A DNA stretch of 35,065 bases from the IMG/VR virus record IMGVR_UViG_3300017971_000553, positions 1 to 35,065 of that record; one strand, written 5' to 3'. A model generated the notes under the pieces. The model made no database searches. It saw nothing but the letters and a program-made list of their open reading frames with translations, and was not told the DNA's origin. This stretch comes from a virus. The translations under genes were made by a program, and so were the position numbers. Positions 16,149 to 35,065 of the stretch are shown in pieces. Within the stretch, counting starts at the first letter, position 1, and each line of letters starts with the position of its first letter.

Positions 16149-17303
16149 CTATCCACCAAATCGCTCATTCCATCGTTTCTCGTGACGAACCATCGCAAGA
16201 TTGAACAGTTCCTCGTATCTCTCGACAAGGTTTGACCACAGCAACCCTCGAGCAAAGGAAAGTCTAGTTTTCTCAGAAGAAGAGAAAAAACCTCGTCCAA
16301 ACACTCGTCTCAAGTCTGAGAAAGAATCGTCCCCTTCCCACTCACAAAAGTCAATCGGCCATTTAGTGTTTTTGACGACATCCTTTTGACGGAAAGCAAC
16401 AACAGGCTTCCCTCGCGCCAATGGCTCTAAAAAGACATAACCGAAACTTTCGCTCCTTGATGGAACCAGAACACAATGAGCGGAGTCAATCAGATACAAA
16501 AGTGACTCCCTTGAGAGTCTAGACTGCACCTTGACATTTCGAGCCGTAACTCGAGAAAGGAATCGAGTAATCTCCTCCTGATTCGCCTCGGCAACGACAA
16601 CGATCTCCTTCCACATCCCGGTATCAATAGCATTGATAAGATTAGGAAGAAAATCTCCTCCCTTTCTCGAGTCACTCAGTCTCCCCACGAATATCAATAA
16701 AAGTGATTCACCCCCCGCCGCCGACTCCACAACATAATCAATACCCAAAGGCAACGACTCAGAAGAAATGCCCAGACGCGCTAACCGTTGTTGCTGAACA
16801 CTACCCGCACAGAACACCACAGCAGACCGTCTCGCCTGCTCCAGTCCACCACATAAATGCGATCGACCCGACTGACGAAAAGAATCGCCTACGGGTGAAG
16901 GTAACCAATCAAAACGATAGGAATCATATAATTCATCGATGAGATCAGAAGCGTACCTCGTCACTGTCGGAGTATCTCCCAACACCTGTTCCAGCAACAA
17001 CGGATAATCGATATGATGAGCCTCGATCACATCCTGGCGATAGGTAGAAACATAGCGATGCACTCCCTCAGCAAATCCACCAAAAGACGAATAAGAGAGA
17101 CCCACCACCCGGACACCGTCAATCGTCCAAATATCCATTGAACTCTTGGCAGAAACTCGACTGATAACCGTAACGTTATGGCCTCGATCGCTCAAGGCCT
17201 TCGCCTCTCCTCTAACGTACGTCACAACGCCGTTAGGAATGACTTCGCTCTCATATCGGGGATATCTCCCTGATATCACTAATCCTATTCTCATTCCAGA
17301 CAT
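16149..17303 (-). CDS. GT-B glycosyltransferase, family 4-like
   Basis: This 384-residue protein has the two-domain GT-B layout. The N-terminal acceptor domain starts MRIGLVISGRYPRYESEVIPN, then GVVTYVRGEAKALSDRGHNV, with the glycine-rich loop seen in GT4 enzymes. The donor domain has VGRLSDSRKG (206-215) and PSRSESFGYVFLEPLARGKP (281-300), holding the E-x7-E motif (Glu285, Glu293) that binds the nucleotide sugar. It would transfer a sugar from a nucleotide donor. Lying between the tail spike and the repeat protein, it could glycosylate a virion protein or modify the host surface glycan. ATG 17303 and ATG 17294 are both possible, each with a GGAGG or GGGAG site in range. Confidence 0.85.
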   Translation of the reverse strand: MSGMRIGLVISGRYPRYESEVIPNGVVTYVRGEAKALSDRGHNVTVISRVSAKSSMDIWTIDGVRVVGLSYSSFGGFAEGVHRYVSTYRQDVIEAHHIDYPLLLEQVLGDTPTVTRYASDLIDELYDSYRFDWLPSPVGDSFRQSGRSHLCGGLEQARRSAVVFCAGSVQQQRLARLGISSESLPLGIDYVVESAAGGESLLLIFVGRLSDSRKGGDFLPNLINAIDTGMWKEIVVVAEANQEEITRFLSRVTARNVKVQSRLSRESLLYLIDSAHCVLVPSRSESFGYVFLEPLARGKPVVAFRQKDVVKNTKWPIDFCEWEGDDSFSDLRRVFGRGFFSSSEKTRLSFARGLLWSNLVERYEELFNLAMVRHEKRWNERFGG

Positions 17304-17360: not shown

Positions 17361-20300
17361 TCAAGTAGCGCTGCTTAGATATACGTCGTCCCCTGTAACA
17401 GAAGTGATATCTGAATTTGTAATAGAGGGAGTTGTCCCGGACGTTGACATAAAGACATTGCTGTCACTCAAACAACCCCTTCCGGCCATAATTAGAGCCT
17501 TACCACTGGAGACATTCGCCCAATATCGATTATTAGTGAAACGACACTGATCGGTTAGACCTAAGCTAACCTCAGTCACTGTTCTCGCTACCGCGGAATC
17601 GATCTTGAAATCACATCGATCAATTACAAGATTCGACGGCATCCCTACCACGGTTATCAGCGCCGTCGCCGCGTTCGGCGTAACTCGAACTAAAAAGTCA
17701 TGTAACGACGCAAAATCCGCCATCTCTATGATAAAAAACTTGCCTGCGTTGTTATATATACTCCTGATTTGTCCGGAATACACATGACAATCTGAACCAA
17801 TATGGATATCAGATCCCACCGTCGGAACATACCCATTAGGCGAAAACTCCAACTCATATGCCTCAACTCCCTCCTCGAGCCACACACCGCCAATATAAAG
17901 AGTGGACGTTAACGGTGCCGCCGCGCAGTCAATAGAAACTCTCCTCAATGACGCAAACTCTGCCGCTAGAATATTCCCTAAGGTGGTAACAGAGCTCGAT
18001 GCACCGTCACAGTTTACAATTGCCAACCCGTTTATCGACGGTCTAGCAAAACCAGAATCCCCTACAATATCCACCCATGAACCATAGTTATTAACCTTAC
18101 CCTTTAGCAGCCTAGTAGCACTCGGTTCATTGTTATTGGTATCAAACACCATATCGTTAACTGATAAGCGCGATTCCTCAACGGCAGGCCCATACATCAC
18201 TATTGGCGTATTTCCCGGAAGATTGGGAATACTGGGATCTAACACCACCAACAACCCATCAATGATGGATTGACAGGGATTGCCTGTTCCTGTACCGGCC
18301 CTTGCGCCGAATTCTATCCAAGGACTAGTACCAGGCTGTTTAACAATACTGTCGCCTATGCTGATCTCACAGTCTCGCATCACAAAAGGAGTACACCCGT
18401 AATACGTTAGGGCCTGTAATGTCGATCCCGTAGTCACGTCACCGCACCGGAAGAAGCACCCCATAAACACCACGCCCGAATTCCGAACATCGAGCAACGC
18501 TCCGCTAGCGTTGTTAAACTGACAATTGACGAACCTTACGTTAGTCGCCGCGCTGAGGTATATCAATACCCTGTCGCTGTCTGAATCAAAAGAACAATTA
18601 TCAAAGGTCACCTGCATATCAAAAACATTAACAATCTGAACAGCATAGGTATCGCCCACAGCAGAAAACCGACAATCCTTGAAGTACAACCCCTCTTCAT
18701 ACTCCGCCGTTGCGCTTATGTTCTGGATATAAATTAACGCCTCCGGAGTTATAGCGGACGACGATGGACCGGAAAAGTGACAGTTCTCAAAATACCCTCT
18801 AGGAGGATATGTTGGATTGTAATCGATAATCTCCAACCCATAATCCTCCGTAGATATTGACGTCGAATTCATGGTTACGTTTCGCATCGTGGTGTTTCCG
18901 CCCACTATCCGAAATGCACCGGAGTCAAAAGCTACATCCTCTAGAATAACCTCCGAAATGTAATCCACTTTCCACTTATAAGATGAATGCAAGCTTTTGA
19001 GCGTAACCCTTGACCATTTACCGTCAAACTCAAAGTCAGACGACGTTCCTACCGGTAGATAGACGGAACACGAATCCTTAGACTCGCCACAAACCCACAC
19101 GTCCTTCGCTAGCGCTGCTATGGCGTTCCAAGTATACGAGCCTCTCCGGAGAAAAAACACACCATTAGTGAAGTCGTTCATGTGATCGACGGAATCCGTA
19201 GAGTCGTAGTCACCCCCCACAGACGTTGCTCCGTGCGTCAATACGGCGGTAAACGCCCGACGCCGGACAACCGTTTCGTCGATCCGGGCAATCGCATCCT
19301 GTAACGTTCCGGGGTCCAAGTCGCCTAAACCGCCAGCTCCTGTGTCGGTTAGCGTTCCGTTCGCGAAGTCGGTGTTGATTCCTATGTCCTGACCGGCCCT
19401 GTTCCCTAGATCGGTGAGTAACTCCGAAAATGCGCTTTGAACATTCGTTGACGAGAGAATACCCACCGGAGTAAAGGCCACCTGTGACGCCGTAATAGAG
19501 TGAGGATCGCCTGCGTCATTGATATGGTCTATCAGTGACTTTCCGGTGTTATAGTACGCGACGGAATGACCGTATAGTCCGTCAACGAGCGGACCCGCTG
19601 ACCCTCGAGTAAACTCGAAGCTTTTTAGGTATCGAACACCAAACCCGAACGACGTCGGAGTTGACGGGATAGTTGTTGTGTTTTCTATCACCCGAACCGT
19701 CCACCTTAGCTTGCTCCGGTGCGCCGTCTCTATCCCCGAAAACGGGTCGGTAATCGCAGAATCCTCTTCTTCCGCAATATCCTCCCACCACGCCATGATG
19801 TAACCGGTGTCTGTTTGGGGAAAAGCACCGGGGACAGTAAGCACGGGCGGTTTGACTATAAATGTATCTCCCACGCCGATGGCACCGATTCCCGCGCCGA
19901 GCGTCAACGTCGTAGATGTATATCCTGTAATGTCAAAAGTGTTTCCACTCTCAGCGCCTGACGTCATGAGAACATAACAAGCGCCATGGTTTGCCGTCGC
20001 CACTAAATCCATGAATGCCTGAAATTTCTGCTGAACATCTGTTATCTTATTGGTGGCGCCGTCAATTCCGGTAACCGTCCCTTCAACAATATAATTTTCG
20101 TCGTCAATATATTCGACGTCAGCCGGTGGATCGGCCTTGGTGGTCGATATCATAGCTCCTTCGACCATGGCCCATCCCGCGCCGATATTGAAATTCTGAT
20201 TTGTAGGAACGGCAGCCGACCCAAATCCAAAACCGGTGCCTACCCTAAATGTTCCAATGAAATATTCGGAAAGAAGTTGTATCCATATCCTCAAATTATC

Positions 20301-20417
20301 CTGGAGTTCATTCAAATCGGCATCCATAACGGGAACACCCTGCTGAATGGAAACTCTTTGATACTCCTTGGTGACATCAAAAGTATTTCGACTGACATTA
20401 GGGGTATTCCCTGGCAT
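17361..20417 (-). CDS. Tail spike/fibre with DUF6519-like N-terminus and right-handed beta-helix
   Basis: This 1018-residue protein starts with a virion-attachment domain. Residues 10-40 (RNTFDVTKEYQRVSIQQGVP, then VMDADLNELQD) match the FDxxKxYxRVxxQQGxxxxDADxNE signature of baseplate-associated proteins known as DUF6519 in injection-system clusters. From about 380 on it has serial beta-helix rungs (MRNVTMNSTSIS, YFENCHFSG, LYFKDCRFSAV, VTFDNCSFDS, VRFVNCQFNN). The repeated CxF steps are typical of pectate-lyase-like spikes that bind or cut surface polysaccharide. It is the likely receptor-binding protein. It follows the gpI-like gene, the usual place for fibres. GGAG precedes ATG 20417. Catalytic residues cannot be assigned by eye. 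Confidence 0.85.
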   Translation of the reverse strand: MPGNTPNVSRNTFDVTKEYQRVSIQQGVPVMDADLNELQDNLRIWIQLLSEYFIGTFRVGTGFGFGSAAVPTNQNFNIGAGWAMVEGAMISTTKADPPADVEYIDDENYIVEGTVTGIDGATNKITDVQQKFQAFMDLVATANHGACYVLMTSGAESGNTFDITGYTSTTLTLGAGIGAIGVGDTFIVKPPVLTVPGAFPQTDTGYIMAWWEDIAEEEDSAITDPFSGIETAHRSKLRWTVRVIENTTTIPSTPTSFGFGVRYLKSFEFTRGSAGPLVDGLYGHSVAYYNTGKSLIDHINDAGDPHSITASQVAFTPVGILSSTNVQSAFSELLTDLGNRAGQDIGINTDFANGTLTDTGAGGLGDLDPGTLQDAIARIDETVVRRRAFTAVLTHGATSVGGDYDSTDSVDHMNDFTNGVFFLRRGSYTWNAIAALAKDVWVCGESKDSCSVYLPVGTSSDFEFDGKWSRVTLKSLHSSYKWKVDYISEVILEDVAFDSGAFRIVGGNTTMRNVTMNSTSISTEDYGLEIIDYNPTYPPRGYFENCHFSGPSSSAITPEALIYIQNISATAEYEEGLYFKDCRFSAVGDTYAVQIVNVFDMQVTFDNCSFDSDSDRVLIYLSAATNVRFVNCQFNNASGALLDVRNSGVVFMGCFFRCGDVTTGSTLQALTYYGCTPFVMRDCEISIGDSIVKQPGTSPWIEFGARAGTGTGNPCQSIIDGLLVVLDPSIPNLPGNTPIVMYGPAVEESRLSVNDMVFDTNNNEPSATRLLKGKVNNYGSWVDIVGDSGFARPSINGLAIVNCDGASSSVTTLGNILAAEFASLRRVSIDCAAAPLTSTLYIGGVWLEEGVEAYELEFSPNGYVPTVGSDIHIGSDCHVYSGQIRSIYNNAGKFFIIEMADFASLHDFLVRVTPNAATALITVVGMPSNLVIDRCDFKIDSAVARTVTEVSLGLTDQCRFTNNRYWANVSSGKALIMAGRGCLSDSNVFMSTSGTTPSITNSDITSVTGDDVYLSSAT

Positions 20418-27561: not shown

Positions 27562-28127
27562 CACAAACCTCGCTGTAACGTGCTTGGACTGACTTCAACC
27601 ATCTGGCGCAATGATTCCAAATGATGGAGCCATGCTCTCAACTCATACTGACTCCTCCAATACTGCGAAAGATTCAACTGAGCCCTCATTCGAGTTACGT
27701 CACCGTTCGGTGCCCTCCGAGTTTCACGAAACTGAACGTCGTTGACTACTACGTGAAAAGAATCTTTACCCAATCCATACAACGCCTGTGGGGGAGGAAT
27801 AAACTGCCCTAAATCCGTGGAATAATCCTCAACATCGGGAAGACAGAACGATTCGAGAAAAGCCCGATAAGCTCCAACCCCCTCCTTGTTATCATCGTAG
27901 TCTTCCGCTGCATCAAACATCAGCTCGAGAGTAATTTGACTTCCTGTCCCGCTTTTGAAGGAAGCCGTCGGAATAGGTGATCCTGCCGCCGAAATATAAT
28001 TGTAAGCCGCAGTAACCCGTCTCGTTGTCTCTGTCGGGTTGTATTGGAATGGAAGAACAGCAACAAGCTCTCCTTGGGCTACTCGACCAATAAATCCCTT
28101 ATTAATCTTCACACCGGAAACAGTCAT
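27561..28127 (-). CDS. Tail/baseplate protein, Afp7- or gp53-like N-terminal part
   Basis: This 188-residue protein has VLPFQYNPTETTRRVTAAYN near the N-terminus, the F-x-Y-N-P motif typical of injection-system tube-initiator or hub-adjacent proteins that usually carry a LysM domain. Later segments are QITLELMFDAAEDYDD, LESFCLPDVEDY and VNDVQFRETRRAPNGDVTRM. Here the LysM part is a separate gene immediately downstream, so a protein that is one chain in injection systems may be split in two. The start overlaps the tape measure stop as ATGA. Confidence 0.75.
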   Translation of the reverse strand: MTVSGVKINKGFIGRVAQGELVAVLPFQYNPTETTRRVTAAYNYISAAGSPIPTASFKSGTGSQITLELMFDAAEDYDDNKEGVGAYRAFLESFCLPDVEDYSTDLGQFIPPPQALYGLGKDSFHVVVNDVQFRETRRAPNGDVTRMRAQLNLSQYWRSQYELRAWLHHLESLRQMVEVSPSTLQRGL

Positions 28128-31120
28128 GAAAACGTGACCTCCTCCTGCTGTTCTAACTGGCGAGATATTCGCTCAATGATCATTCCGGCCAACTTCTCAG
28201 CCTCTTCCGGTGTAGATTCTCCTGCGGTCACGGTAATCTCGCCAATGTTCACAGTGACCGATCGAGACCCACTGCCTGAGCCTGTAGCTCCTTCAACGGC
28301 TGCCCCTAGCGGTGACGACTGTTGTATAGGAGAATCCCCAGAAACAATCTGAGAAATTCGACCTGTCATATCGGCAATTCCCGTTATCGTCTCGGGGAAT
28401 GCCTCGCTCACTCCGCCTAGCCACGTCCGCCATAGTGAGCTCCCGCTCTCGGTAAGTGTGGACAATGGACCTGCCACCGCGTCAGAATGAGGGAGCAAAT
28501 CCCGTATCTCTGCGATGTTCTCAGAGAACGACACCACCAATGAACTCCATACTGATCGAATACCACTCTTGAACGCCTCAACGAGAGCCTTTCCCGCGTT
28601 AAACGCTTTCGTGACTAACCCCGAGAAAAAAGAAAAAATCGTTGTCCCTACCGCTACAAGGATCGTGCCCACTGTCGTCAACAGATTTAGAATAACGGAA
28701 TAGATCGGAGCCATTACCTGCAATATAGCCCCGACCGCTGTACTGAAAATCCCCGAGATAGTCATCCACGTCTCGAGAAGAAAGTTAGTCAGCTCATTGA
28801 ATGCCCTCATCAATGGTCGAACAATCGGGGAATAGATATATTGTTCGACCCAGGGCATTACGTGCGCCCTCCAAGGCGCATCAGCCGCCGTCATCTTCGC
28901 CCATAATATTTGGAAAAACTCGATCAAAGCCCCAAAAGGTTTGATGACTTCACTCACCCAAGAAACAAGAGCGTCTTTTGCTCGACCGAGCCATGAAACC
29001 AACTCGATAACCCCTATGACGAGTAACGCAATCAGAGCGCCTATTGCAATAAACGCAATAATTGGCGCAGCCAAGGCGAGACCAATAACACCCAGAACAA
29101 CCGCAAGGTTCCCAAGAGCGAAGCCCAAAAGAGCAACTCCAGCAACAAGAACCACACCGAGAACCTTTCCTGCGTTTCTCCAAAAGTCCATATTCTCGTC
29201 AAACTTGATGCCCACTGACGCAAGCGTTTCTTCCAACCAATCGATGCCCGAGATAACGGTTTCCAGTGCGAATGAAAACACAGCAACAAATATTTCCCAA
29301 GCACCTCCCATAACCTCTGATGCACTCTTCCACATCTCCTGAACTCTAACGATGAATCCCGTAAGAAACAGAAATCCCTTAGCCAGTCCCCTGTCTTCTA
29401 ACTGTTCTTTCAATGCCGTCGCGATAGACGTTTGACCCGAACCGAACCAATCAACCAACGCCGTCCAAATAAGTTGAATGTCTGACACCCAATCATCGAT
29501 GAAATCTTTTAAACCACCTAAGTTCTTCTCATAGGCTATTGCGAGAAGAACAATACCACCGACAAACGCCAACATTCCGCCCGCAAGTGCGCCCACTACC
29601 AGAAGCAAAGGAAGAACCAAAGTTTCAAGAACAGCGATCACACCAGCTAAAGTCACCCCTGCGGTAGCAGCCGAGGCAAACGATCCGGCTACCATAGACA
29701 ACGCCAACACCAACCCACTGAGTGTAACGATAAACCCACCAACGGCTAGGCTTGTGAGAGTGAATCCCAAGACAAGGAAAGCAATAACCTGCGCAATTTT
29801 GGGGTGAGCCCTGACAAAACCGAGAAACCCATTAACGAACTCCCGAGTAACGTTTATTGCAAAACGAATAGCGGGAGCCAGCGCCTGACCCAACACCACA
29901 GCTATTGTTTGCAAAGAACCCACCACGAATACTTTCATTCCCGCAATCGTAGTTTCAAACGATGCCGCCGCTTGCCGAGAAGCTCCTTCTCCGTCGCCTA
30001 TTCTCCGAATCAACTCGCGAACCGCGTCAGAACCTTCCATTCCATAGCGCTGATATGACGCACCAGCAGAAACAAGCTGTGATGCCTGTTGACCCAACAA
30101 CGTATTCAATAGCGTAATCTTTTCCTCGTCCGTTCCAAAGTCCTTGTAATTATCGATAAGATCCGTAATAACATCGGTCAACCTACGAACCTGTCGAGTC
30201 TGCGGGTCAAATATATCCACACCAAAACGCCGGAAAGACTCCACCAATACGCGGGCTCGACGGGTACCTCTTCCTCCCATCTGTTCTGCTGCCCGAACCT
30301 GTCTCATTATAATGGCAAACCTTCGACCCATTCCGGTGAGAGCCTGGGTGGCATCCGCCGCTTGAAGCCCTGACGACCGAAGCATGCCAGCTAGACCGAA
30401 CACCTCCTGAGAGTTCACGCGCCACACATTGGCCATACCCCGCAAACTTCGCATAACCTCAGGAATCTCCGAAATATCAAACGCCGTCTCTCTTGCAGCC
30501 TGAGCCCAGTGATCCATGATCACTCGACCCGCCTGGACGTCTTCGCCTGCCCCTCTAAACTGATGTCGAAACTGAGCAATTGCCGCCGCGGTGGAAAGAG
30601 TCGCCTGATCCAACGACAACGTGCCAGCCGACGCCGTCGCAAGGTCGAGAGCAGACCTCAACTCTCTCATGGCTTCATTTGTCTCGAGACCTGCCGCACG
30701 AAGACGACGAAGCCCCCCAATTGCCTGGGTGGGAGAGAATTGAGTTTCAACCCCTGTCGTCAATGCCAGTTCTCGAAGTATCTCCAACTCCTGACCTACG
30801 GCTCCGCTCACAAATTGGAGGCGGGAAAGTTCGACACCAAAATCCTCAGCATTCGACATCATAGGATCGAGAACTAATCGACGCATTGCCTCTCCTGCGC
30901 CGGTAGCACCAAGACCCACCATCAAGGCACCCCCAGCCGCCTGAGCCGAGGCCTGCATTGTTCGCTGAAGTGTGCGGGAGAAATCCTCAGCCTGTCTCTC
31001 TGTTTTTTGTTTCAGTCTACCGAGAGACTGATCAACCAATTGAACGCCACGAATCGCGCCCGAAGGATCGAAGTCTAACGCAATGCCCAATAATAGAGTT
31101 TCTCCCGCACCGCCTTGCAT
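28124..31120 (-). CDS. Tail tape measure protein
   Basis: This 998-residue protein has the family's N-terminal pattern (MMSNAEDFGVELSRLQFVSG, ATGVETQFSPTQAIGGLRRL, SLDQATLSTAAAIAQFRHQF) and glycine-rich helices. Several hydrophobic stretches (about 425-560 and 655-710) can pass through the membrane during injection. Using the usual rule of about 0.15 nm per residue, the tail would be near 150 nm. GGGGAG lies 8 bases before ATG 31120. The start directly follows the stop of the -1 frame extension of the upstream chaperone gene, the canonical position for a tape measure gene. Its presence shows that this is a phage tail rather than a short injection system. Confidence 0.93.
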   Translation of the reverse strand: MQGGAGETLLLGIALDFDPSGAIRGVQLVDQSLGRLKQKTERQAEDFSRTLQRTMQASAQAAGGALMVGLGATGAGEAMRRLVLDPMMSNAEDFGVELSRLQFVSGAVGQELEILRELALTTGVETQFSPTQAIGGLRRLRAAGLETNEAMRELRSALDLATASAGTLSLDQATLSTAAAIAQFRHQFRGAGEDVQAGRVIMDHWAQAARETAFDISEIPEVMRSLRGMANVWRVNSQEVFGLAGMLRSSGLQAADATQALTGMGRRFAIIMRQVRAAEQMGGRGTRRARVLVESFRRFGVDIFDPQTRQVRRLTDVITDLIDNYKDFGTDEEKITLLNTLLGQQASQLVSAGASYQRYGMEGSDAVRELIRRIGDGEGASRQAAASFETTIAGMKVFVVGSLQTIAVVLGQALAPAIRFAINVTREFVNGFLGFVRAHPKIAQVIAFLVLGFTLTSLAVGGFIVTLSGLVLALSMVAGSFASAATAGVTLAGVIAVLETLVLPLLLVVGALAGGMLAFVGGIVLLAIAYEKNLGGLKDFIDDWVSDIQLIWTALVDWFGSGQTSIATALKEQLEDRGLAKGFLFLTGFIVRVQEMWKSASEVMGGAWEIFVAVFSFALETVISGIDWLEETLASVGIKFDENMDFWRNAGKVLGVVLVAGVALLGFALGNLAVVLGVIGLALAAPIIAFIAIGALIALLVIGVIELVSWLGRAKDALVSWVSEVIKPFGALIEFFQILWAKMTAADAPWRAHVMPWVEQYIYSPIVRPLMRAFNELTNFLLETWMTISGIFSTAVGAILQVMAPIYSVILNLLTTVGTILVAVGTTIFSFFSGLVTKAFNAGKALVEAFKSGIRSVWSSLVVSFSENIAEIRDLLPHSDAVAGPLSTLTESGSSLWRTWLGGVSEAFPETITGIADMTGRISQIVSGDSPIQQSSPLGAAVEGATGSGSGSRSVTVNIGEITVTAGESTPEEAEKLAGMIIERISRQLEQQEEVTFS

Positions 31121-31318
31121 TTATCGTCTCCCCAGAAGCGCTTTCCACTTCTTATTTTCTTCTCTCTTCAGCCCATTTATTCTTTCACAATACTCGTGCC
31201 TTTTCCATCGAGGCAAGTTCAATATATCCTGTTCGGTCCAACCATATACGTGCGCGATCCAGTGAACCTCATCGAGTAGATTTCGACGAATCGCCTCTGC
31301 GTCTTCGTCGCTTAGGCT
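31121..31318 (-). CDS. -1 frame extension of tail chaperone (DUF6760-like), expressed by frameshift
   Basis: This frame encodes 65 residues (SLSDEDAEAIRRNLLDEVHW, IAHVYGWTEQDILNLPRWKR, ...LLGRR). It resembles the short helical DUF6760-type proteins found next to tape measure or spike genes in injection systems (L-x-E-V-x-x-I-A-x-x-x-x-W, D-I-L-x-L-P). There is no ATG, GTG or TTG in this frame before that conserved part. The first candidate, a TTG at L33, lies within it and has no ribosome binding site. The frame joins the upstream chaperone gene in the -1 frame exactly at a T TTT TTA slip site. The predicted product is a fusion of about 326 residues (261 + 65). It ends with TAA directly before the tape measure ATG. 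Confidence 0.75.
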   Translation of the reverse strand, partial: SLSDEDAEAIRRNLLDEVHWIAHVYGWTEQDILNLPRWKRHEYCERINGLKREENKKWKALLGRR

Positions 31319-31324
31319 AAAAAA
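31284..31324 (-). promoter_or_regulatory. Programmed -1 ribosomal frameshift signal
   Basis: The slippery heptamer T TTT TTA covers 31318-31324, in the correct phase of the chaperone gene (codons GCT TTT TTA). A 7-base spacer follows, then a stem of CGACGAA (31304-31310) pairing with TTCGTCG (31284-31290) around a 13-base loop. The zero frame stops two codons later (GCC TAA). Heptamer, spacer and stem match the standard layout; P2 E/E' uses a closely related T TTT TTG. Confidence 0.75.
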
Positions 31325-32100
31325 GCAGTAAGATTCAACACTGCCTCAACATCGGAATAAAAACACGAATGACACGAGAGCTTAGACCACATCTTAAGTC
31401 CTGGCGTCTTGTCCCTAACTGTGTTGAGAAGTAGAAGCCTATCTCGACTCTTCAACCGCGACGCCTGACTTTGATCCAATCCATCCATATCGCCCAATTT
31501 TGTAACACATGCCGCAATCATAGCCGTCACCGCCTGAGCGCGATTCTGTTGAGCGATAATTGCAACTTGTTCCTGATCCGAACCTCGAGCAAACCGAATC
31601 TTTCCCTCCTTGTGCCATTTCCCTTCGTAGTAAAAACCACGATTCAACGTGAACTCAATTTCTGTCGCCTGATCAGTAGGCCAAGGAACAACCTGTTGTT
31701 CTGAGAGAAGAACCTGCTCCTCAACGAGCTCCCCGCACTTCGGACAAGTACCACTCAACACCGTCTCATCCTTTTCAGCGAGAAGTAGAACCCTCGAATA
31801 AAGAAAGTCTCGATCTATCTGGTACATATTCCTGATGAGATTGTAGTCGAGTAACGCATCGGGGTTTTTCTTCCGAGGAACCAGCCCCTCGATCTCTTGA
31901 ATAGCTCGAGACAACACCAAAGTCATACCCTTGGCGCTGTTATTCCCGACCCGTTTCTTGTCAGACATCAACTGTTCGTCCACTCCCGAAAATTCATCGA
32001 GAACGATAGTTCTATAGCGCGTTCCTTCGCTCTCGATTCCAATAGGCAATTCAATGCGATCAGACATTCCCTCTTGGATAGAGGTATCCTGGTTTGACAT
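31312..32100 (-). CDS. Tail/baseplate assembly chaperone with four-cysteine motif
   Basis: This 262-residue protein lies between tube and tape measure, the place of tail assembly chaperones. The N-terminal half (RYRTIVLDEFSGVDEQLMSD, ALLDYNLIRNMYQIDRDFLY) resembles the T4-type baseplate hub assembly chaperone family seen in injection systems. Cys119 and Cys122 (CPKC), with Cys243 and Cys246 (CHSC), could bind one zinc. AGGAG lies 7 bases before ATG 32100. The frame ends just past a -1 slip site, so both a 262-residue and a roughly 326-residue form are predicted. In lambda and P2 the ratio of such forms is needed to load the tape measure. The gap at 32101-32165 is A-rich without further features. 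Confidence 0.82.
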   Translation of the reverse strand: MSNQDTSIQEGMSDRIELPIGIESEGTRYRTIVLDEFSGVDEQLMSDKKRVGNNSAKGMTLVLSRAIQEIEGLVPRKKNPDALLDYNLIRNMYQIDRDFLYSRVLLLAEKDETVLSGTCPKCGELVEEQVLLSEQQVVPWPTDQATEIEFTLNRGFYYEGKWHKEGKIRFARGSDQEQVAIIAQQNRAQAVTAMIAACVTKLGDMDGLDQSQASRLKSRDRLLLLNTVRDKTPGLKMWSKLSCHSCFYSDVEAVLNLTAFLA

Positions 32101-32165: not shown

Positions 32166-32633
32166 TTAGATCAATGTCTCTTCTTTGATTCCTTCATTCG
32201 CGAGAACCAAAGTCGAGATGAGAACTTCATTTCCTGACGCGTCAAGATCCGCCGCCGATTGCTCCATGGGCCATGCCCTATAAATAGTCCATTTCTTGCG
32301 ACGAAGCCCTGCCTTGTCCTTCAAGTACACAATAACTTTTCGGCGAAAGATTCGATCGTCGGCAAGACCTGCTCCTTGAAATCCGTTGACGCTATCGAGA
32401 TTAAAAATCTGCCTCATCCACGTAATGAAGTCGGAATCGTTTGACATCCCTCGCTCGAGAGTCACGTTTTCGAATGTCGACTGTCCTGGAAGTTTTTTGG
32501 GTGTTTCGTTATCGCCACCCTCTCGGTATTCAACCACTTCCACCGTGTGGCTAAGACCCGACACCTTCGAGAATCCAGCACGAATGAAGCCCAAAATCTC
32601 GACCTCAAATTTCATGTTTCTGAAAGGATCCAT
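32166..32633 (-). CDS. Tail tube protein (gp19-like)
   Basis: This 155-residue protein has the size and layout of T4-type gp19 tube proteins: DPFRNMKFEVEILGFIRAGF, then SKVSGLSHTVEVVEYREGGD at the N-terminus, then KLPGQSTFENVTLERGMSND. These are the PFRNxxF and FxxVSGL, EYREGG, LPGxxxxxxVTLxRG signatures. The C-terminal IYRAWPMEQSAADLDASGNE, then VLISTLVLANEGI is also typical. It forms stacked hexamers inside the sheath. AAGGAGG precedes ATG 32633. The stop is 65 bases before the chaperone start. Confidence 0.94.
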   Translation of the reverse strand: MDPFRNMKFEVEILGFIRAGFSKVSGLSHTVEVVEYREGGDNETPKKLPGQSTFENVTLERGMSNDSDFITWMRQIFNLDSVNGFQGAGLADDRIFRRKVIVYLKDKAGLRRKKWTIYRAWPMEQSAADLDASGNEVLISTLVLANEGIKEETLI

Positions 32634-32658: not shown

Positions 32659-35065
32659 CTAGGCCTCAGAAATTGTTGTCCCGCTTTCCATCTGGGTGAA
32701 TCTCCAAATAATAAACTCACCTGGTTTCTGCGGTGCTATTCCAACTTCACCAATGACTCGCCCTGCATCGATGTCAGCTTGAACCATTGTTCCATCATCT
32801 GTTCCCATCTTCACGAAATATGAATCGCTCGCAGTCTCCGAAGGGAACGCATTTTGCGGAGCCAATGACTCAAGAAATTCCTCGACTCTATCTTTCAACT
32901 TAGCCCAAAGCCTGAAATCATTATTTCTCAGAATAGCCCATCTGGTGTTATCTGCTATCGATTTCTCGATAAACTGGAACATTCGCCTGACATTAATATA
33001 ACGCCATTTCTGAGAAACCGAGCTGTCCAAAGTTCTGGCACCCATGACGAGAACGGGACCGACATTCCCATACTGTCGAATGGTATTGATATGCGCGTCG
33101 TTCAATAGCGCGTGAGCTGCATCGTCATATTCGGTGACTGCATTGAGAGCATAATTGATTCGGCCATAGCTCCCTTCACCTGCCGGGGATTGCCACGGTC
33201 CACCGTTAGGTGACGCAAGATTATCAACGCGAGCCCTCAGTCCCATAACCGCGCCGACACCGGCAATTGAACGTTTCGGGGATGACCCTGCACCTGCGAC
33301 ATCAAACACCTTGATGCCGCCAGCGTAAAGAGATACATAACTGGAATCAATACCCAGTGTTGTCTCTCGATAAGCTACCGCCTGAGCAGCCGTCAACCCT
33401 GCTGTGCAATAAGTGATAAACTCCAAATAAATCTTTGATGCCGCATAATTAGCGGCGGCGTGAACCACTGCGGCATTATTATTCCCCACAATAGCGAACG
33501 GCATGAATTCAATATTGTTGTTCAGAGCATACAGGCCTGTTCCACCTGTCTCCGATCCAATCCAATCCACATCCGTCATGCCTGTGGCTTCATTTGCCCC
33601 ACTGGTGAGAGCTACCCCTGCCGTATCCGTTGCCGGCAAGTCAGCGCCAAGACCTATCGCGGCGTCAAGATCGGTTACTTTGATGTAAAACGACCCTGTG
33701 GATTCATCGTTCATCAATGTCTCGACATAATTGTCTGCGGTATCGAGCATTGACATTTGCACCCATCGATCAACCTCCACCTCTACGTCGTTCTCGTAGA
33801 TATGCAGATCGAATTCCTGAGTTTGAAGCGTGGTTACACCCACCACATACGAGTTACTGAACGAACCCGAAATATCGACGAAGAAAGTCGCCGCGCCTGC
33901 CGCGATAACCGTTCGCACCGCAGTGACCTGCTTATATTCCGTATTTGTTCCGTCCGTAACCTTTATCACTGAATCAACATTGATGCCTGCAAGAGACACC
34001 ACTTGAACACTAGTGTCCGCCGCCGTGATATCAACCGCGATATCCGACCCCGCTCCTGCCGATGCGTGTCGCGGATTTTGAGTGATCTTTGTTTTGAGAT
34101 TATTTCCCCAAGTTCCTGGTGAGACCTGACCTAAATATCCGGCTTCCATCTTCAGTGTGCTGTAAGTTGCACCTGCCGCCGTTCCGGTGATAGTTTCAAC
34201 AGAAAGACCCAGCGCGGTCAACGCGGTTCCGGATTGGAAGTCTAACTCTGAAGTCAACCCGGTGGTCGGAGACGTTATCGTAAAGTTTCCTGCGGGATTA
34301 ACCGTCACAAGAGCAGTGGTATCCGCCTCAATAATTGTTTTGATCTCTGTCGCTGTTACCCTATCGATATCCGCGACATCTCCTGTTCCTATGACCGCAG
34401 CACCTGGACTGTGACCGATATGCGCTGCCCCACCCGATCCACCGGTCTCTGATACCACTTGAAGCGTCGAGTCGGTGCCGTACGTATCAGAATAGAGATC
34501 GATGTTTCCGGCGTTGTCTACCGCGGTTATGCCTGACGTTTGTGCGTGAATGGCGGCAATGGCAAGAGCGACGGTGTTCTCCGTTCCCGCCCAGGTTACC
34601 GTCTGATTGTCGGGGTCTTTATCGCATTTGAGAACAACGGTATCGCCAGCATCGGGCGGAAGCGCCGGAGCCCCGCCGGCGATAACAGCTCTCGCCGCAT
34701 CCCATGTCGCGGTTGCTACACCTACGTTGTCAACATCCAGATCGACATCCCAACCTGGTTCCAGGTTGTAATTCTGAGCCCCACCCGTCTTTGTGGCCGG
34801 AGTAGCAGCAACCCCATCGGTTATCGATGTCCTGTTGGCTGCAACGCCCGAATAGGATGTTGAATCGTCGATATTGGTATAATTCCCCAAACGAACAGTA
34901 AGAAGCTCGACTCCACCTTCCCTAAAGAATGCCTCGGCCTCGTACGCCATGTCAGACCGAGATTCTCGATTCCCGAAGACCTTCTTCCATTCTTCGAATG
35001 AGTTTGTTCTCACCACAGTACGAAGAGGCCCTCGCTCGGTGATGCCCATCAATGCACCGTAGCCA
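32659..35065 (-). CDS. Tail sheath protein, 5' end beyond right edge
   Basis: The frame is open to the right edge (GYGALMGITERGPLRTVVRT), matching the sheath N-terminal FVGxxxxGP entry, so the gene starts outside the window and at least 801 residues are visible. The C-terminal 120 residues (VSQKWRYINVRRMFQFIEKS, then RWAILRNNDFRLWAKLKDRV, then ESGTTISEA) are the conserved sheath core that contacts the tube and the neighbouring sheath strands. Residues about 90-300 (counted from a TTG at 35052) form a large insertion containing two related beta domains. The sheath contracts to drive the tube into the host. An upstream TTG or ATG near 35052 is not the true start. Confidence 0.95.
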   Translation of the reverse strand, partial: GYGALMGITERGPLRTVVRTNSFEEWKKVFGNRESRSDMAYEAEAFFREGGVELLTVRLGNYTNIDDSTSYSGVAANRTSITDGVAATPATKTGGAQNYNLEPGWDVDLDVDNVGVATATWDAARAVIAGGAPALPPDAGDTVVLKCDKDPDNQTVTWAGTENTVALAIAAIHAQTSGITAVDNAGNIDLYSDTYGTDSTLQVVSETGGSGGAAHIGHSPGAAVIGTGDVADIDRVTATEIKTIIEADTTALVTVNPAGNFTITSPTTGLTSELDFQSGTALTALGLSVETITGTAAGATYSTLKMEAGYLGQVSPGTWGNNLKTKITQNPRHASAGAGSDIAVDITAADTSVQVVSLAGINVDSVIKVTDGTNTEYKQVTAVRTVIAAGAATFFVDISGSFSNSYVVGVTTLQTQEFDLHIYENDVEVEVDRWVQMSMLDTADNYVETLMNDESTGSFYIKVTDLDAAIGLGADLPATDTAGVALTSGANEATGMTDVDWIGSETGGTGLYALNNNIEFMPFAIVGNNNAAVVHAAANYAASKIYLEFITYCTAGLTAAQAVAYRETTLGIDSSYVSLYAGGIKVFDVAGAGSSPKRSIAGVGAVMGLRARVDNLASPNGGPWQSPAGEGSYGRINYALNAVTEYDDAAHALLNDAHINTIRQYGNVGPVLVMGARTLDSSVSQKWRYINVRRMFQFIEKSIADNTRWAILRNNDFRLWAKLKDRVEEFLESLAPQNAFPSETASDSYFVKMGTDDGTMVQADIDAGRVIGEVGIAPQKPGEFIIWRFTQMESGTTISEA
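34198..34590 (-). repeat. Two related beta domains inside sheath insertion
   Basis: Within the sheath, residues about 155-213 (VALAIAAIHAQTSGITAVDN, then AGNIDLYSDTYGTDSTLQVV) and about 228-285 (EIKTIIEADTTALVTVNPAG, then NFTITSPTTGLTSELDF) share the layout helix, strand, AGN, strand, S-x-T-x-G, strand, and end in a GLS-like or IGH-like motif. They look like a tandem domain duplication. Numbering counts the TTG codon at 35052 as 1. Confidence 0.5.

Follow-up and report, generated by a model that had tools for sequence, protein, structure and literature searches.

The window, i.e., the whole stretch of 35,065 nucleotides analyzed here, corresponds to positions 1-35,065 of the virus record IMGVR_UViG_3300017971_000553 and carries a contractile-tail module with the gene order sheath, tube, chaperone, DUF6760, and tape measure. 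The following features are located there:

32659..35052, minus strand: tail sheath protein, 797 aa (Phage_sheath_1C, 5.9e-8)
32166..32633, minus strand: tail tube protein of the T4 gp19 family, 155 aa (PF06841, 2.2e-37)
31312..32100, minus strand: tail-assembly chaperone of 262 aa, the "G-like" product of the zero frame; two CxxC zinc motifs and a two-repeat T4 gp26-type fold
31318..31324, minus strand: slippery heptamer T_TTT_TTA, -1 site, phase X_XXY_YYZ
31311..31317, minus strand: 7-nt spacer (gcctaag) including the zero-frame TAA stop at 31314-31312
31284..31310, minus strand: hairpin, putative stimulator (arms 31310-31304 and 31290-31284, 7 bp, 13-nt loop)
31121..31321, minus strand: start-less DUF6760 -1 frame, 66 residues when counted from the second Phe codon, ended by TAA (PF20546 match)
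31128..31133, minus strand: GGGGAG, likely Shine-Dalgarno sequence of the tape-measure gene, within the DUF6760 frame
28124..31120, minus strand: tape-measure protein, 998 aa (PhageMin_Tail, 5.8e-21; PHROG tape measure, 6e-29)
28127-27561, minus strand: CIS_tube-family protein, part of the tail module

Genes for a hub protein (GPD-like), a gpV-type spike base, and baseplate J also belong to the tail module, and outside of it the window encodes a DnaB-type helicase, a Toprim primase, a DnaC-like loader, a beta-helix protein, and a glycosyltransferase. The latter (16149-17303, GT4-like) adjoins the gene for the 1018-aa beta-helix, tailspike-like protein (17361-20417). Scanning the window for Rfam families and tRNAs gives no matches. 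If eCIS are defined as stand-alone clusters with a Pvc15-type ATPase and a Pvc16 terminator and without phage replication genes, neither Pvc16 nor a Pvc15-type AAA-ATPase is encountered among the scanned ORFs of the window. As helicase, primase, loader, and others are present, the window represents a phage with an injection-system-like tail and not an eCIS. An earlier interpretation made from the letters of this DNA (the sequence-only reading) had assigned the locus to an injection-system-like tail lineage, which is appropriate for the tail, but the window itself is a phage and its chaperone is T4 gp26-like.

The chaperone ORF (32100-31312, minus strand) ends with GCT TTT TTA GCC TAA, and re-reading of positions 31324-31318 places T_TTT_TTA in the X_XXY_YYZ phase, as the sequence-only reading had claimed. 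The other details that it had given are also found: the 7-base spacer gcctaag between heptamer and stem, a 7-bp stem (CGACGAA/TTCGTCG) with a 13-nt loop, a zero-frame TAA as second codon past the heptamer, and a -1 frame comprising 65 residues after the slip, the TAA of which (31123-31121) abuts the tape-measure ATG at 31120. From its upstream stop to the core of the domain, this -1 frame is devoid of ATG, GTG, or TTG. Its product matches DUF6760 (PF20546; E 7.7e-9, 35.9 bits at a Pfam gathering cut-off of 27), and protein conservation starts immediately past the slip site. The tape-measure gene has its own ribosome-binding sequence, GGGGAG, sited in the DUF6760 frame, and no comparable sequence precedes DUF6760 in the window. 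As in G/GT-type loci, two overlapping frames lie between the tube gene and the tape-measure gene, and the second one is start-less and protein-coding. The predicted hairpin is modest (-13.7 kcal/mol, z = -1.55). One other in-phase X_XXY_YYZ heptamer exists in the chaperone gene, GGGAAAG at 31606; the -1 frame entered there is soon closed by a stop.

Very probably, both the chaperone and a chaperone-DUF6760 protein arise from the chaperone gene through programmed -1 ribosomal frameshifting. Most ribosomes would terminate after FLA*, releasing the chaperone alone, whereas a minority would slip back one base on T_TTT_TTA and continue in the start-less frame. In the lineage of the window, the hairpin located 7 nt downstream might assist this slip. 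We infer the ribosomal nature of the slippage, its efficiency, and the partners of both domains.

Direct tblastn searches with chaperone and DUF6760 against 50,697 phage records give no matches and, therefore, the tube protein was taken as search anchor. Tube-anchored scans identify about 20 more viral contigs with tube identities of 56-68%, and in all readable contigs the chaperone ends with [GCT/TCT/AGT] TTT TTC and DUF6760 follows in the -1 frame. One contig, IMGVR_UViG_3300028840_004199 (L002/L007/L087), encodes a chaperone 100% identical to that of the window with the same slip site, and a search for tape-measure relatives returns the near-identical contig only. When lineages are defined as clusters at 80% protein identity, the window and its close viral relatives comprise 11 lineages, all of which possess a U6 slip site T_TTT_TTY (TTA in the window) at the 3' end of the chaperone gene, while none of 55 fifteen-codon spans elsewhere in the same genes contains one. 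Conservation of the heptamer at the chaperone end is well beyond chance. The first Phe codon of the site is always TTT; in L009 the six other Phe codons are all TTC. In close relatives the -1 frame is under purifying selection with dN/dS values of 0.10-0.15 (L009/L023: dN 0.14, dS 0.97, substitutions by codon position 11/5/27; L012/L016: dN 0.056, dS 0.55, substitutions 4/2/17), and changes concentrate at the third codon positions of the -1 frame.

The viral lineages form two sub-types. In the window-like one (window, L009, L023, and L097), the zero-frame stop follows 0-1 codons past the slip site and a stem is placed as in the window (z of -2.4, -1.1, and -3.4 for L009, L023, and L097, respectively). 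In the other sub-type, the stop is encountered 8-10 codons past the slip site and no clear stem follows. Spacing, the conservation of which the sequence-only reading had proposed to check, and stem are kept in window-like lineages, but the stem is not common to sister viral lineages. A role of the hairpin as universal stimulator is ruled out, as it is found only in the four window-like lineages; its modest stability and its absence outside of them count against the explanation that we favor. In L021/L022 the conserved T_TTT_TTC is accompanied at the chaperone end by AGGAGGAG...TAATG (AGGAGG upstream), and there re-initiation could possibly supply additional free DUF6760.

A second version of the junction exists in the Streptomyces phages GiJojo, BRock, pSt2308, and LuckySocke, which show a window-like gene order with the small frame in +1; deposited starts of this frame are late and differ, or the frame is not annotated. 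The sequence NTG_TTT_C is invariant in 13 of 13 lineages (background 0/65), including Actinomadura and Saccharothrix genomes. The distance from this site to the stop varies between 4 and 7 codons, and so does the identity of the codon preceding the stop. A +1 shift at the stop itself (CTC_TGA, RF2-like) is ruled out, as last sense codon (CTG, CTC, GTC, TAC, or GCC) and stop vary whereas NTG_TTT_C does not. The +1 event is likely a slip of tRNA-Phe from UUU to UUC. Bacillus phage SP-15 shows the same layout (...GAA TTT TTT CAC...), with TTT_C where expected and a +1 frame that stays open past the end of the chaperone and reaches the tape-measure-like gene. The 39-aa ORF annotated in the SP-15 locus (L288, 3100-3390) probably represents the last part of an extension that the baseplate hub (gp26-like) gene gains by +1 at TTT_TTT_C.

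Among whole genomes, PF20546 is encoded by 19 of 297 in the phylum of Kribbella, 24 of 244 in that of Crocosphaera, and 22 of 251 in that of a Chloroflexi genome. In eCIS, the gene upstream of DUF6760 codes for a zinc tail assembly protein of 120 aa, equivalent to a single repeat of the phage chaperone by profile comparison (E 3e-15 and 3e-17), and its end enters an in-phase G-run, for example CTG GGG GAA TCG TGA. The -1 frame of this example reads CCT GGG GGA ATC GTG ..., i.e., GG(I/V)xxY...LYEEVAYVAYHFHW. All 43 eCIS lineages carry an in-phase G|GGG site (background 20/215), and 42 of them carry G|GGG|G (background 6/215). A start codon between slip site and DUF6760 core is absent from 22 of the 43 lineages and present in 21. 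Annotated starts of DUF6760 are an ATA in Nostoc (L284) and a domain-trimming TTG in Rhodococcus (L285), and in Brasilonema (L287) DUF6760 is absent from the deposited annotation. The evidence says that most of the "separate" DUF6760 genes of eCIS are presumably frameshift extensions.

Seven loci that had appeared as fused (L195, L214, L223, L234, L235, L267, and L275) were rejected as long open frames by chance; a G-run is present in all except L234. Outside the statistics are L240 and L256, with broken chaperone frames, as well as the edge cases L152, L163, and L188. In the cyanobacterial L240 and L256, a second chaperone-like ORF is located upstream in the locus of the broken frame beside DUF6760. 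Several eCIS loci (e.g., L193, L200, L241, and L263) display a fixed nucleotide element, (N)GC TAC CCC, 15 nt past the G-run (TAC in 28/30 vs. 39% background, CCC in 25/30 vs. 26%), which is absent in most Actinobacteria. The TAC CCC element could pair with the G-run to form a G5:C5 hairpin enclosing the slip site, which is not the usual layout of a stimulator.

As the sites of the viral -1 and the eCIS classes are homopolymer runs, one might think of transcriptional slippage: gain or loss of a base by RNA polymerase within T6 (or G5-7) would give some mRNAs with fused frames and an identical protein outcome. However, runs such as T6 and G5 offer little length for bacterial RNA polymerase to slip on efficiently. 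Also, the phase of the heptamer is fixed, the TTT_C of the +1 class is not a long run, and no "fivetwo" motif of annotated phage frameshifts is more common than GGGGGAA (PMC10885494). Slippage of the polymerase thus seems highly improbable.

In some lineages DUF6760 is encoded by a gene of its own. The sequence-only reading had named homologs with an own start and no slip site as the case that would speak against it; such genes occur, but they are confined to the Actinomycetota L231-L234, L236, and L237 and to Haloferax L286. They start with ATG (GTG in L234), usually overlapping the chaperone stop, with ATGA or GTGA stop-start overlaps in the G-run-less actinobacterial L231, L233, L236, and L237 and in Haloferax L286. 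The chaperone is kept in these lineages (110-168 bits for those scored; the L232 copy was not recovered), and a linker tail either takes the place of its zinc-motif region or comes after it. Since DUF6760 is also a separate protein in some lineages, covalent linkage is common, though not the only solution. These overlaps, together with the start codons in 21 of 43 eCIS lineages and the AGGAGG...TAATG of L021/L022, speak for translational coupling, by which a separate DUF6760 is made through re-initiation past the chaperone stop at a non-standard or weak start. Coupling, however, finds no ATG, GTG, or TTG before the core in the window and its three nearest lineages, nor in 22 of 43 eCIS lineages, and leaves unexplained why the slip site is kept in one phase and why +1 and fused versions share the same junction. 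As a general explanation we consider it very unlikely. Conservation of the slip site and of the missing start in homologous phages and injection clusters, as the sequence-only reading had asked for, is thus seen with the exceptions noted.

The same junction is also bridged without any recoding. A single open frame, mostly of about 290-310 aa, spans chaperone and DUF6760 at about 35 loci (Nitrosomonas, Desulfoluna, Brocadia, Nitrospirota, and others). Nitrosomonas marina L162 is an eCIS, with Pvc16 and an AAA ATPase adjoining, and its single chain matches both PF12322 (71.7 bits) and PF20546 (29.6 bits). When aligned with the fusions, the profile of the viral chaperones matches from end to end and breaks off exactly at the FF/FFF junction (E 1.5e-27). 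No conserved slip site is found at the junction of the fused genes, and a hidden dnaX-like truncation site is ruled out there, as the junction Phe codons vary freely. Fused loci have no short product and, therefore, a fixed ratio of two forms is not universal; only the long form would be expected from them, so that the ratio may matter less there. The idea that chaperone and DUF6760 constitute one frameshift-controlled unit is consequently supported by slip sites, start-less frames, and same-junction fusions, but it does not apply universally.

The chaperone of the window scores 19.8 bits with PF12322 (T4_baseplate/gp26), below the cut-off of 24.5, and all 12 of 12 members of the chaperone family match PF12322. 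In profile-profile comparison, its family reaches E 1.5e-27 with proteins that score 71.7 bits for PF12322. The AlphaFold model of the window chaperone (pLDDT 85.8) has T4-like baseplate hub assembly proteins as nearest folds. The model of the Nitrosomonas fusion (pLDDT 95.5, pTM 0.90) consists of two similar repeats and a helical DUF6760 region past the junction, and its nearest viral folds are also T4-like baseplate hub assembly proteins (E down to 1e-19). Family members, profiles, and fold support, at the family level, that the window chaperone belongs to the T4 gp26-type family. Among solved structures no fold match is significant, the HK97 tail assembly chaperone 2ob9_B being weakly similar (TM 0.56 by target length, probability 0.47, E 2.6), and in a sequence search of solved structures no chain convincingly matches chaperone or DUF6760. 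Such a result is as expected for assembly factors absent from the finished particle.

In phage lambda, G coats the tape measure and T recruits the tube protein, at a ratio of about 30:1 (PMC5009743). The analogy with G/GT would assign coating of the tape-measure protein to the chaperone moiety that both products share and recruitment of tube subunits or of the initiation complex to DUF6760, with neither remaining in the particle. Recoding is strongly indicated by the sequences, and T-domain function of DUF6760 is suggested by this analogy. We lean towards a joint reading in which DUF6760 would be the "T domain" of T4-type contractile machines, joined interchangeably by phages and eCIS (by -1 on U6, -1 on G5-7, +1 on UUU_C, plain fusion, or rarely coupling), and in which eCIS would depend on frameshifting. 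Alternatively, frameshifting is real and DUF6760 is not T-like but serves baseplate/hub assembly or folding of the tape measure. The chaperone part is of the family of T4 gp26, a baseplate hub assembly protein, its nearest named folds are alike, and a review counts T4 gp26 and gp51 among the hub assembly chaperones (PMC3004832). However, the roles of gp26 and gp51 in T4 are themselves unresolved in the same review (PMC3004832), the genes lie between tube and tape measure, just where G/GT is located, and in an eCIS plasmid the pair is flanked by two "phage tail protein" (tube-type) genes. A hub or folding function is possible and seems to us the less probable of the two.

Chaperone-DUF6760 joining appears to be an overlooked common step in building contractile tails. 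If the joint reading is true, the eCIS would be a widespread, cell-encoded injection machine dependent on programmed frameshifting across bacterial phyla. DUF6760, an unnamed domain that genome annotation mis-starts or drops, gains a testable role, and the tail-length and tube-initiation step of contractile machines becomes directly testable. Nature has performed an experiment here, in which three or more kinds of recoding site, and also plain fusion, lead to one and the same protein junction. Codon optimization of such clusters could silently remove the long product. Our literature search, which covered few subscription papers, retrieved no paper naming DUF6760 and nothing relevant on frameshifting in injection systems or eCIS.

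Similarities to G/GT of lambda and E/E' of P2 consist in a gene just upstream of the tape measure, a start-less second frame, and a classic slippery heptamer; P2 also uses a U-rich heptamer. In contrast to lambda G, the window chaperone is T4 gp26-type with zinc motifs, and sequence homology between them is undetectable. The extension is DUF6760 here, and in relatives the junction is reached through +1 sites, G-runs, or plain fusion. A review of the field describes G-T frameshifting as a conserved trait of long-tailed phages, with T4 as the exception (PMC5009743). T4 gp26/gp51 (PF12322) share fold and family with the chaperone part of the window but differ from it in that no frameshift extension is known in T4 (PMC5009743). 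The tail chaperone of the haloarchaeal myovirus HSTV-2, which has a contractile tail and is likened here by description only, very likely employs a +1 frameshift (PMC5009743). DUF6760 proteins of eCIS (PF20546) have the same domain and adjoin a tail assembly protein as well, but they are annotated as stand-alone, mis-started, or missing. In the best reading, what is new is the extension of the known G/GT recoding, and with it the same G-T logic, to the T4 gp26-type chaperone lineage and to eCIS.
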